From Spirochaetales bacterium (GTDB lineage: Bacteria > Spirochaetota > Spirochaetia > Sphaerochaetales > Sphaerochaetaceae), in assembly GCA_012519125.1 (NCBI GenBank), contig JAAYQY010000293.1:1-10208 (forward strand): 10,208 nucleotides of DNA. The letters run 5' to 3'. Under the pieces are notes generated by a model that had not been told where the DNA came from, did not search any database, and saw only the letters and a program-made list of their open reading frames with translations. Positions 4,532 to 6,704 of the stretch are shown piece after piece; within the stretch, counting starts at the first letter, position 1, and each line of letters opens with the position of its first letter. The translations under genes were made by a program, and so were the position numbers.

Positions 4532-5272
4532 ATGAAAAAGATTCGCATTGCGTTTGCAGCCCTGTTTGTTCTCCCCATCCTGATTCTCTCTCCCCTCTAC
4601 GGCTTTCTTCCTGCGTATCTACTCAGACTCTTCGGCCTCAAGAAGCAAGCAGATCGGCATCTTGAGCGCAGCGGGCACTTCATCGGTAGTTCCATCCTCT
4701 TCTTTCTCGGCATCACGGTGCACGTCGATGGGCGGGAGAACCTGCCTGAGGTCTCGAACATCTGCTACATGGCCAATCACCAGAGCATGCTCGATATCGT
4801 TGCTTTCGTAGGGCCTGCCCGGCTTTGGGCAAGCATTCTTGCGAAGGCTGAAGTGAGAAGGATTCCCATCATCAATCTCTGGTGCTATGCACTGGGGTGC
4901 ATCTTCATCGAGCGCACCAGTCCCCATGATGCAGTGAAGGCCATTCTCAAGGGTGTCCAGTACTTGAAAGATGGAAGGAGCATGCTCATCTTCCCTGAAG
5001 GAACCAGAAGCAAAAGCGGAAAAATCGGGGAGTTGAAGAACGGAAGTCTCAAGCTGGCAACCCGGTCAAAAGCAGTCATTGTCCCCATAACCATCAAGGG
5101 CCTTCGTGCAGGATTTGAGCATCTGCATGGGTTTAAGCGGGTTCATGCCTACTTCTCCATCTCTGCGCCCATCGATACGGCAACGCTGCATGAGGATCAG
5201 ATTGCCAACCTCCACGAGGTGGTCTATGGGACCATCGCAAAGCGATTCGACGAGCTCCCTGGCGAAGTCTAG
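4532..5272 (+). CDS. plsC: 1-acyl-sn-glycerol-3-phosphate acyltransferase (PlsC family)
   Basis: This 246-residue membrane-associated acyltransferase would add the second acyl chain to lysophosphatidic acid to make phosphatidic acid, the precursor of membrane phospholipids. The four family blocks are present in order: NHQSMLD (82-88), the catalytic H-x4-D with H83 and D88; CIFIER (123-128), the F-x-x-R block; FPEGTRS (154-160), the glycerophosphate-binding EGTR; and VPITIKG (184-190). Residues 6-32 are strongly hydrophobic and a second hydrophobic stretch lies near 50-63, consistent with N-terminal membrane anchoring. Length is normal for the family. It follows the ABC exporter by 18 bases and ends seven bases before the ECF ATPase start. 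The family also includes acyltransferases with other acceptors (for example lyso-ornithine lipid), so the acceptor is inferred from the family norm. Confidence 0.9.
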   Translation: MKKIRIAFAALFVLPILILSPLYGFLPAYLLRLFGLKKQADRHLERSGHFIGSSILFFLGITVHVDGRENLPEVSNICYMANHQSMLDIVAFVGPARLWASILAKAEVRRIPIINLWCYALGCIFIERTSPHDAVKAILKGVQYLKDGRSMLIFPEGTRSKSGKIGELKNGSLKLATRSKAVIVPITIKGLRAGFEHLHGFKRVHAYFSISAPIDTATLHEDQIANLHEVVYGTIAKRFDELPGEV

Positions 5273-5279
5273 GGTGCCT

Positions 5280-6704
5280 ATGCCAAACGCATTCTGCATC
5301 GAACACCTCAGCTTTACGTATCATTCCTATGTCCAGAAACAGTGTGAGAGTCTCTTCGAGAACCTGAGTTTGCAGATTGAGGAGGGGAGCAAGACGCTCT
5401 TGCTCGCTCCTTTCGACAAGGGAAAGACCACCATGGCCAAGATCATGTGTGGGGTTTGTCCCAAGTACTTTCCCGGTACGTTGGAGGGGACTATCCGTGT
5501 ATTCGGCACCGATCTGGCCACCCTGGAGCCTTGGCAACTGCTCTCCATCTGCTCGTATGTCTCCCAAAATCCCCAGGAACAATTCATTGCCAATTCGGTT
5601 GAGGAGGAGCTCGCCTTCCCCCTTGAGTCCCTTGGACTCGGTCGGGAAGAGATGCGAAGTCGCATCGATAGAGCTCTCCAGCATTGGGGCCTCGATCGGC
5701 TGAGGACTTCAAGCGAACAAGAGTTGAGCGGGGGAGAGCGCAAGCGTGTCCTGCTTGCAGTCACCGAGGCGATAGATGCCCGGTTCTGGATCCTCGACGA
5801 AGCCTTCGATGATTTGGACCAAAGGTGGCGCGACCAACTCAAGGAGATGATAGACAAGGGTAACAAGACCGTTTTGGTGCTTGCAAGCCGCTATCTGGCT
5901 GAGTTTGATGGTCTCTTTGACCAAGTGCTTCTGTTGGACGACAAGAAAGTTGTCTCCCTTCCCCAGCAGCAGCTGCTGTCTCGTTTTTCCCAGCTTTGCC
6001 AGGATGATCTGGCCAATCCCCTAGCTTCCCAAGTGTGTACTCCCCCTGAAGTACGGCAGTTGGTCTGCACCGATTTGGTTGCCGAACGCAGAAGGATGAG
6101 CACGTTGGAAGAGGCTTCCTTCAAAGTTCAGGTTCCGCATTTCACACTCCAGAGCGGGGAACTGGTTACCTTGGTCGGTCCGAACGGAAGCGGGAAAAGT
6201 TCCTTCTCCCGTATACTCTGCGGCCTGGATGGGTATCTGAGCGGTTCCATCAAGTTCGACGGCACCTCCCTGTCAGGCAAAGAGCTCTCCAAGAAGGTTG
6301 GCTATCTTTTTCAGAACCCTGATCTGCAGATTTTTCTTCCCACCGTCAATGATGAGCTCTCTTGGTCGCTCAGAAGAAGACGTGACTTGAAACAGGAGGA
6401 GATTCGTCGGAGGGTTGCTGCTTGTGCCGACCTTTTTGGACTCTCCCTCTCCGATACTCCGGCTACCATGAGTTATCCGCTGCGCAAGGCTCTTCAGGCT
6501 GCTGTCTACTATCTCTTGGACAGGCCCTTCTATATTCTGGACGAGCTTGACAGTGCCCTGACCTACCATACAGCGCTCTCCATCATCAGGGACCTCAGGC
6601 AAAATGGGGCCGGCATCCTTCTGATCACCCACGACAGGCAGTTTGCCAAGCGAGTGCAGCAGAGAACCTACTCAATAGAGAAGGGGAGGCTCTGCGAGCT
6701 ATGA
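5280..6704 (+). CDS. ECF transporter ATPase, two fused nucleotide-binding domains with complementary degeneration
   Basis: This 474-residue protein is two ECF-type ABC ATPases in one chain (about residues 1-235 and 275-474), the arrangement known from YkoD-like fused EcfA proteins. It would power an energy-coupling-factor importer on the cytoplasmic face, binding EcfT. Domain 1: Walker A reads APFDKGKTT (43-51), lacking the first two glycines; Q-loop QNPQEQ (96-101); intact signature LSGGE (149-153); Walker B ILDE (171-174); D-loop Asp D180; and the H-loop His is Ser (S203). Domain 2: Walker A GPNGSGKSS (300-308), Q-loop FQNPDLQ (344-350), Walker B ILDE (419-422) and H-loop H451 are intact, but the signature reads MSYPL (397-401) and the D-loop Asp is Thr (T428). 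The start at 5280 sits at the first domain strand (CIEHLSFTY), with AGGG at 5271-5274. A GTG at 5274 is a possible alternative, and longer in-frame starts lie inside plsC. It overlaps ecfT by four bases. Confidence 0.92.
   Translation: MPNAFCIEHLSFTYHSYVQKQCESLFENLSLQIEEGSKTLLLAPFDKGKTTMAKIMCGVCPKYFPGTLEGTIRVFGTDLATLEPWQLLSICSYVSQNPQEQFIANSVEEELAFPLESLGLGREEMRSRIDRALQHWGLDRLRTSSEQELSGGERKRVLLAVTEAIDARFWILDEAFDDLDQRWRDQLKEMIDKGNKTVLVLASRYLAEFDGLFDQVLLLDDKKVVSLPQQQLLSRFSQLCQDDLANPLASQVCTPPEVRQLVCTDLVAERRRMSTLEEASFKVQVPHFTLQSGELVTLVGPNGSGKSSFSRILCGLDGYLSGSIKFDGTSLSGKELSKKVGYLFQNPDLQIFLPTVNDELSWSLRRRRDLKQEEIRRRVAACADLFGLSLSDTPATMSYPLRKALQAAVYYLLDRPFYILDELDSALTYHTALSIIRDLRQNGAGILLITHDRQFAKRVQQRTYSIEKGRLCEL

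Follow-up and report, generated by a model that had tools for sequence, protein, structure and literature searches.

The window analysed here is an entire 10,208-base contig (G000:C185) from a draft genome assembly of 457 contigs. It carries on its forward strand a reading frame (5280..6704, +) which is open throughout and translates to 474 aa plus a stop codon, encoding a fused two-domain ECF-type ABC ATPase. PF00005 matches the chain in two stretches (126.8 bits) and the predicted structure agrees, with half 1 formed by residues about 1-242 and half 2 by residues about 256-474. The ATPase stop is overlapped by 4 bases by the start of a gene for EcfT of the CbiQ family (PF02361, 6701..7471, +), followed downstream by a gene for an S-component (PF07155, 7482..8003, +) with a basic C-terminal tail, AVKKAYPPVRSLSW, its best solved relative being 4hzu_S (E 5e-14). 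Pfam finds no transmembrane domain in the ATPase chain, which EcfT and the S-component adjoin, and the protein does not qualify as a heterodimeric ABC exporter. The other genes of the window code for an aminotransferase, a DEAD helicase, an ABC exporter, an acyltransferase and a GMP synthase, with a partial MatE gene at the contig end. RNA hinting at a substrate was also sought, with no Rfam family reaching its gathering score in the window. Some database versions of the ATPase are 18 residues longer (492 aa), with a start that would fall inside the acyltransferase gene (window 5226-5280), and the start codon used here is provisional.

The fused ATPase does not reach the NCBIfam equivalog cut-off of TIGR04520/TIGR04521 (best 194.8 bits versus 315); it falls outside both single-domain equivalogs, which nonetheless rank among the models nearest to it. 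Close homologues bearing an organism name belong to Sphaerochaeta, Sphaerochaetaceae or another spirochaete, and the system is a putative vitamin-type uptake pump of Sphaerochaeta-like spirochaetes.

Among 60 genomes searched, an S-component was found in all 36 counted with an ATPase of the window's clade (described below), lying on the ATPase contig in 32 of them and on another contig in G013, G033, G035 and G045, with the contigs of G013 being cut there. In the other 24 genomes no S-component was found, except for one weak match (G059, E 5e-5). From this co-occurrence in 36/36 genomes, the fused ATPase is predicted to drive uptake via the adjoining EcfT and S-component. The two coupling Arg residues of EcfT align with those of the solved EcfT 5d3m_D. 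The S-component tails beside clade ATPases possess [KR] preceding [AG][YF] in 42 of 43 distinct tails, with [KR][KR] present in 30 and [KR]AYPPV in 32 of the 43; the sole tail without the basic pattern (L008_13) is one piece of a gene that is split over two frames. In genome G011 (C2:671521-672038) the S-component gene matches as two overlapping pieces in separate frames, possibly due to a frameshift.

In ABC dimers, each composite ATP site is built from the Walker motifs of one domain and the signature of the other. Here, NBS1 denotes the site made of the Walker A and B motifs, Q-loop and H-loop of half 1 with the signature and D-loop of half 2, and NBS2 denotes the reverse. Half 1 has an A-loop Tyr14 (5319..5321, +), a position held by Tyr or Phe in all 60 clade rows having a letter there, a P-loop APFDKGKTT (A43-T51, 5406..5432, +), Q96, an intact signature L149SGGE153 that forms part of NBS2 (5724..5738, +), a Walker B Asp173 with catalytic Glu174 (5796..5801, +), both retained in 61/61 clade rows, a D-loop Asp180 (5817..5819, +) and, at the H-loop position, Ser203 replacing His (5886..5888, +). 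Half 2 has Arg270 at its A-loop position in place of an aromatic residue (6087..6089, +), a canonical P-loop GPNGSGKSS (G300PNGSGKS307, 6177..6203, +), M397SYPL401 replacing the LSGGQ/E signature (6468..6482, +), a Walker B Asp421 with catalytic Glu422 (6540..6545, +), Thr428 replacing the D-loop Asp (6561..6563, +) and an H-loop His451 (6630..6632, +).

Apart from Arg270, these are the motif losses that the initial annotation had reported for the gene, and every residue it named is correct on translation; that half 1 retains Y14, Q96 and the catalytic Glu174 had escaped it. Its gap-free pairing of MSYPL with the half-1 signature also holds, as each half-2 motif from the signature to the H-loop, Walker B and the D-loop included, lies 248 residues beyond its half-1 counterpart, an offset matched in an AlphaFold2 model of the ATPase chain (mean pLDDT 94.7, pTM 0.91). 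In this model the signature helix (151-165/399-413), the Walker B strand (169-173/417-421) and the next helix (181-193/429-441) keep the same offset, and the strands that follow both begin at it (197/445). Since the helices and strands hold this register, S203 is the counterpart of H451, as the annotation had it. Sequence alignments (MAFFT) set the outgroup half-1 His one column late, at 204; the strand spacing and the model decide for S203, and R204 as the H-loop replacement was ruled out on the same grounds. The stretch from D-loop to H-loop (window 5817-5888 and 6561-6632) comprises 23 residues in both halves in most clade members, compared with 26 or 27 in the majority of fused ECF ATPases elsewhere, being thus shortened in both halves.

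Two descriptions were too strong. The half-1 P-loop, which had been called broken, is divergent only: A43 and D46 stand in place of Gly, but G48, K49 and T50 are present. The general P-loop pattern is [AG]-x(4)-G-K-[ST], which the half-1 sequence still fits, and ATP binding by half 1 is plausible because GK[ST] and the catalytic Glu174 are retained. The opposite site had been described as fully canonical, whereas its A-loop position is occupied by Arg270. The deviations are nonetheless gathered in one composite site, NBS1, and include the H-loop (Ser203), while its catalytic Glu174 is retained.

Compared with solved fused ATPases, the model is closest to ATP-bound DppD (8wdb_D, TM 0.85, rmsd 3.5), with apo DppD (8wd9_D) scoring 0.67. 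The model is a closed head-to-tail sandwich, consistent with the composite-site pairing, and is silent on ATP itself. As 8xfc_D, a DppD entry titled ATP-bound, matches like the apo form (TM only 0.67), the fold match is taken as evidence for a closed model and not for bound ATP.

Conservation was followed in 241 aligned proteins, these being the window protein (P0001), the best 120 of 4306 matches of a first protein search and the best 120 of 2903 matches of a second, which used the 35% identical homologue L032 as query. As the top matches of two queries, these proteins are mutually related and biased toward the pattern; P0002 is 100% identical to P0001, and alignment A2 covers 140 of the 241. 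Position 203 is Ser in 198, Ala in 38 and Thr in 5 of the 241 rows and His in none, position 399 is Y, F or W in all, and position 428 is T, S, G or N with Asp in none. P-loop position 46 is D/E in 214, N in 22 and another residue in 3 of the 239 rows having a letter. K306, D421, E422 and H451 of NBS2 are invariant (241/241), as are E174 (241/241) and K49 (239/239 rows having a letter) of half 1, whose A-loop position holds Tyr or Phe in 237/237 rows having a letter. Position 270, the half-2 A-loop, is never aromatic in the first search (121 rows, R76 H38 K5 N2) and is aromatic in all 120 rows of the second, more distant search.

In a tree of 90 fused ECF ATPases, the window protein lies within a clade of 61 rows separated from 29 other fusions with an SH-aLRT of 100. 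In the selection of rows, 89 of 142 ORFs were retained; those dropped were shorter than 380 aa, scored below 195 bits, or were duplicates or the window's own copies, and they include two pieces from G022 and two fragments from G314. A supposed frameshift in G022 (L031) was discarded, since its two pieces are separated by a stretch of X that corresponds to N in the contig. Every genome of the 61 clade rows belongs to the window's own class, while the 29 outgroup fusions come from other Spirochaetota, Chloroflexota, Bacillota, Actinomycetota, records titled Deltaproteobacteria and one archaeon. The split keeps an SH-aLRT of 100 with the motif columns removed, in a 64-row subset from which three long outgroup rows and most near copies had been dropped. 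About 40 of 392 sampled genomes of the phylum have a clade-level match, as read from a score list, with G318 counted by score alone. A scan of genome contigs kept 80 of 433 confirmed loci, so that near relatives may be missing from it; the approximately 18 fused ATPases aligned from these 80 loci all fall outside the clade, which says nothing on the absence of the clade elsewhere.

Within the clade, the first Gly of the half-2 signature is present in 0/61 rows and the half-2 D-loop Asp in 2/61, while the residues of NBS2 are retained in 60 or 61 of the 61 except for D180 (46/61); row L014 has Ala at position 300. In half 1, G48, K49, S/T50, D173, E174 and the A-loop aromatic residue are unchanged, with Q96 in 60/61. 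Tabulation of both halves across homologues, as the initial annotation had proposed, bears it out on these points: the NBS1 losses recur through the 241 rows and the 61-row clade with NBS2 kept, and fused ATPases with an intact half-1 His and half-2 D-loop Asp lie, in the rows examined, outside the clade. A parsimony count, used so that kinship is allowed for, gives 78 changes at 14 NBS1 positions versus 8 at 14 NBS2 positions in the 61-row clade, the median for any position being 15; positions 401 and 50, which are loose, account for 34 of the 78, and position 307 (S/T) for 4 of the 8. The dN/dS ratio of the whole gene is 0.047 against relative L002 and 0.115 against L004, and half 1 (0.077, 0.142) exceeds half 2 (0.028, 0.071) in the same two comparisons, which indicate purifying selection on both ATPase halves. 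For three relatives further removed, most comparisons gave a saturated or ill-defined dS. Because it is conserved across so many relatives, the pattern looks like design and not damage.

One genus of the same family, g37, does not fit the clean picture. It accounts for 15 of the 61 clade rows (L147-L161), and in all 15 the half-1 D-loop Asp is replaced by Ser or Gly, a loss belonging to NBS2. In 13 of the 15 a His is found at 204, one past the H-loop position, and P-loop position 46 is Gly in 14; both clade rows that have the half-2 D-loop Asp (L147, L150) are also of this genus. Genus g37 has a different asymmetric pattern. The claim that every loss falls into one site stands for the losses named by the initial annotation, all of which belong to NBS1 and are conserved, but is not supported as worded, given the missing half-2 A-loop aromatic residue of this family and the D-loop loss of g37. 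The first Gly of the half-2 signature is replaced in 19 of 29 outgroup loci too, and its change alone need not disable a site.

Half 1 is a possible counterpart of EcfA. In the window the profile scores of half 1 favour EcfA (118 versus 84 bits), but for half 2 the same model, ECF_ATPase_1, is the only one above threshold; in a tree of halves the fused halves are not joined to tandem EcfA1 or EcfA2, save for L053; and a homology model in PMC5037267 pairs the N-terminal half of YkoD with EcfA2.

Degeneration of the same site was also met outside the clade. A third search, with a profile of outgroup fusions, gave 7995 matches, of which the best 120 (P0242-P0361) were taken and 119 scored, one of more than 700 aa being dropped. 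Among these best 120 of 7995, 11 of the 13 proteins bearing an organism name are from Anaerolineae or Chloroflexi; Glu stands at the fourth P-loop position of half 1 in 110/119, the half-2 signature reads LTKS, with T-K for S-G in 118/119 and Ser for the second Gly in 112/119, and 13 NBS2 features are all canonical in 119/119, with the half-1 His retained in 115/119 and the half-2 D-loop Asp in 119/119. These Anaerolineae-type fusions are a second group in which NBS1 is degenerate, through different substitutions; their acidic P-loop residue occupies the position that is acidic in the clade. In the 29 outgroup loci, more losses fall in NBS1 in 17, losses are equal in 9 and more fall in NBS2 in 3 (L042, L172, L037); this trend is not a fair sample, the loci having been found by clade queries and the 120 third-search proteins by a profile favouring one family. 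The half-1 His is present in 25 of the 29 in an outgroup-only alignment.

Several single fusions likewise show losses in NBS1. L046 and L168, both outside the clade, have LDQP at half-1 Walker B, with Gln for the catalytic Glu, and L164, L167, L171 and L045 have Gln or Pro in place of the half-1 His. The genome of the window encodes a second fused ECF ATPase (L170, G000:C79:1-2700), a 588-aa open frame reaching the contig end, in which the half-1 site is canonical and half 2 has LSYGQ; its relatives are of about 889 aa with an EcfT-like match in the same frame.

One rather unlikely reading would make the asymmetry common to fused ECF ATPases at large and older than the divergence of their families between phyla, with the window an extreme case; this bears on origin only and is compatible with any of the workings discussed below. 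The 119 proteins scored from the best 120 third-search matches, with NBS1 degenerate in another way, would agree with it, as would the grouping together of half 1 from 20 of 21 fused ATPases tested, all but L053, and an AU test (without P0244 and three long rows) in which a tree uniting the two degenerate groups is not rejected (p 0.16). A first AU test that had rejected a single group (p 9e-7) was discarded, as it included P0244, which belongs elsewhere. However, in the best trees, less degraded or intact fused ECF ATPases stand between the two groups, and the letters differ, with MSY, H to S and D to T/S in the clade and LTKS with His and Asp mostly kept in the other. An independent origin of the Chloroflexota-type degeneration is favoured by these comparisons, not proven, and recurrence of NBS1 loss is only a lead because of the AU result and the biased sampling.

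In ECF transporters of group II, the ATPase pair closes when ATP binds, which is presumed to expel the S-component, with hydrolysis resetting the module (PMC10368641). In canonical ECF-FolT2 supplied with ATP in nanodiscs, ADP was found at EcfA' and ATP at EcfA, so that hydrolysis had occurred at one site only, and the adenine at EcfA is flanked by Phe13 of EcfA on one side and, on the other, by Arg174 from the end of the S-component (PMC10368641). For the window, we consider it probable that the fused ATPase is the motor of a dedicated ECF importer in which NBS2 is hydrolytic and NBS1 holds ATP with very slow or no hydrolysis. NBS2, formed by the half-2 Walker motifs and His451 with LSGGE and D180 of half 1, would be the hydrolytic site. 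NBS1 would most likely still bind ATP through Y14, G48-K49-T50, Q96, D173 and E174, its hydrolysis being very slow or nil owing to the loss of the H-loop His, the signature and the D-loop Asp. With both sites filled by ATP, the sandwich would close and force EcfT into a conformation expelling the S-component; hydrolysis at NBS2 alone would reopen the motor, and the ATP of NBS1 may persist over several cycles. The spirochaete motor would thereby have made hereditary a division of labour of the FolT2 type. The one-site catalysis proposed by the initial annotation is what we infer from the motifs as well, and its interpretation is partly supported overall.

The retention of Glu174 in every row is odd for a long-dead site, and slow hydrolysis at NBS1 is possible. 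That both sites hydrolyse, with Glu174 catalytic, another residue replacing the H-loop His and the changes in NBS1 tuning rate or affinity, is an unlikely reading, to which the invariance of Glu174 and K49 among the 241 proteins, the His one past the H-loop position in 13 of 61 clade rows (a single genus) and the frequency of single signature changes in related fusions lend something. Against it, His and the first signature Gly are changed in 61/61 clade rows and the D-loop Asp in 59/61, all together, and the 14 motif positions of NBS1 have changed about ten times as often as those of NBS2. No conserved substitute for His is evident either, R204 matching an Arg already present after the His in many outgroups, which read EHR. 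Less probable still is an empty NBS1, in which half 1 would bind no nucleotide and serve only as scaffold and signature donor for NBS2. Such a site would suit the two P-loop glycines replaced in the window, one of them by Asp at position 46, where an acidic residue or Asn prevails among the 239 rows, but the unchanged G48, K49, S/T50, D173, E174 and A-loop aromatic residue, with Q96 in all but one clade row, would be hard to explain without a nucleotide. Gene decay or sequencing error, for which motif losses (as an expected start of decay) and the draft assembly might speak, is already contradicted by the absence of internal stops in any clade match listed, by the low dN/dS and by the same changes in the 241 rows, which exclude the read error that the initial annotation had allowed for.

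Returning to the motor with a hydrolytic NBS2 and an ATP-holding NBS1, a more tentative extension, which we hold as rather doubtful, can be drawn by analogy with FolT2. NBS1, with its A-loop Tyr, Walker Lys and Glu kept, may be an ATP-filled sensor in a heritable one-hydrolytic-site ECF motor, its adenine in contact with the S-component's basic tail in the manner of Arg174 of FolT2, and so controlled by S-component docking and not by hydrolysis; such a motor might have been reached more than once in fused ECF ATPases, always at the same site. The half-1 A-loop aromatic residue kept and the half-2 one lost in the window's family would suit this role, provided that half 1 is the counterpart of EcfA.

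Degenerate ATP sites are already known in exporters and in RbsA/NupO; for ECF transporters, searches of open-access papers gave no such report. If one site of an ECF motor is disabled by nature, the motor would offer a direct test of whether one hydrolysis per cycle suffices and of what purpose the second ATP serves. Like the group II ECF transporters, exemplified by ECF-FolT2, the system of the window has two ECF-type ATPase domains, the coupling Arg residues of EcfT and a basic S-component tail. The ATPases of group II are, however, separate chains, and the aligned solved EcfA1 chains carry canonical motifs, while the unequal occupancy of ECF-FolT2 to which the window is likened is the state of one preparation and not written in the sequence (PMC10368641). 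YkoD of the group I transporter YkoEDC is likewise a fusion of two ATPase domains belonging to a dedicated ECF module, and the description drawn on from PMC5037267 makes no mention of a degenerate site.

The initial annotation placed such asymmetry in heterodimeric exporters, which is too narrow, as the importers RbsA and NupO of Bacillus subtilis have one degenerate site in a fused tandem ATPase (PMC11466899) and the two-site transporter ECF-FolT2 shows unequal nucleotide occupancy (PMC10368641). Unlike the window ATPase, these are reported as type II importers with a second Walker A lacking Lys, the loss being thus in half 2 (PMC11466899); here it lies in half 1, where Lys is kept. In Pdr5, one site is described as substituted in each motif except the D-loops (PMC6533308), and Pdr5, ABCC, CFTR and TM287/288 are like the window in having their deviations in one composite site, made of the NBD1 Walker motifs and the NBD2 signature (PMC7756269, PMC6533308). 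They are mostly exporters in which the catalytic Glu is often altered, in contrast to the putative importer described here, which keeps Glu174. In full-length human ABC proteins the degenerate site is stated to be always NBS1, with the NBD2 signature altered in all such cases (PMC7756269), and the motor proposed here would extend that rule to ECF importers.
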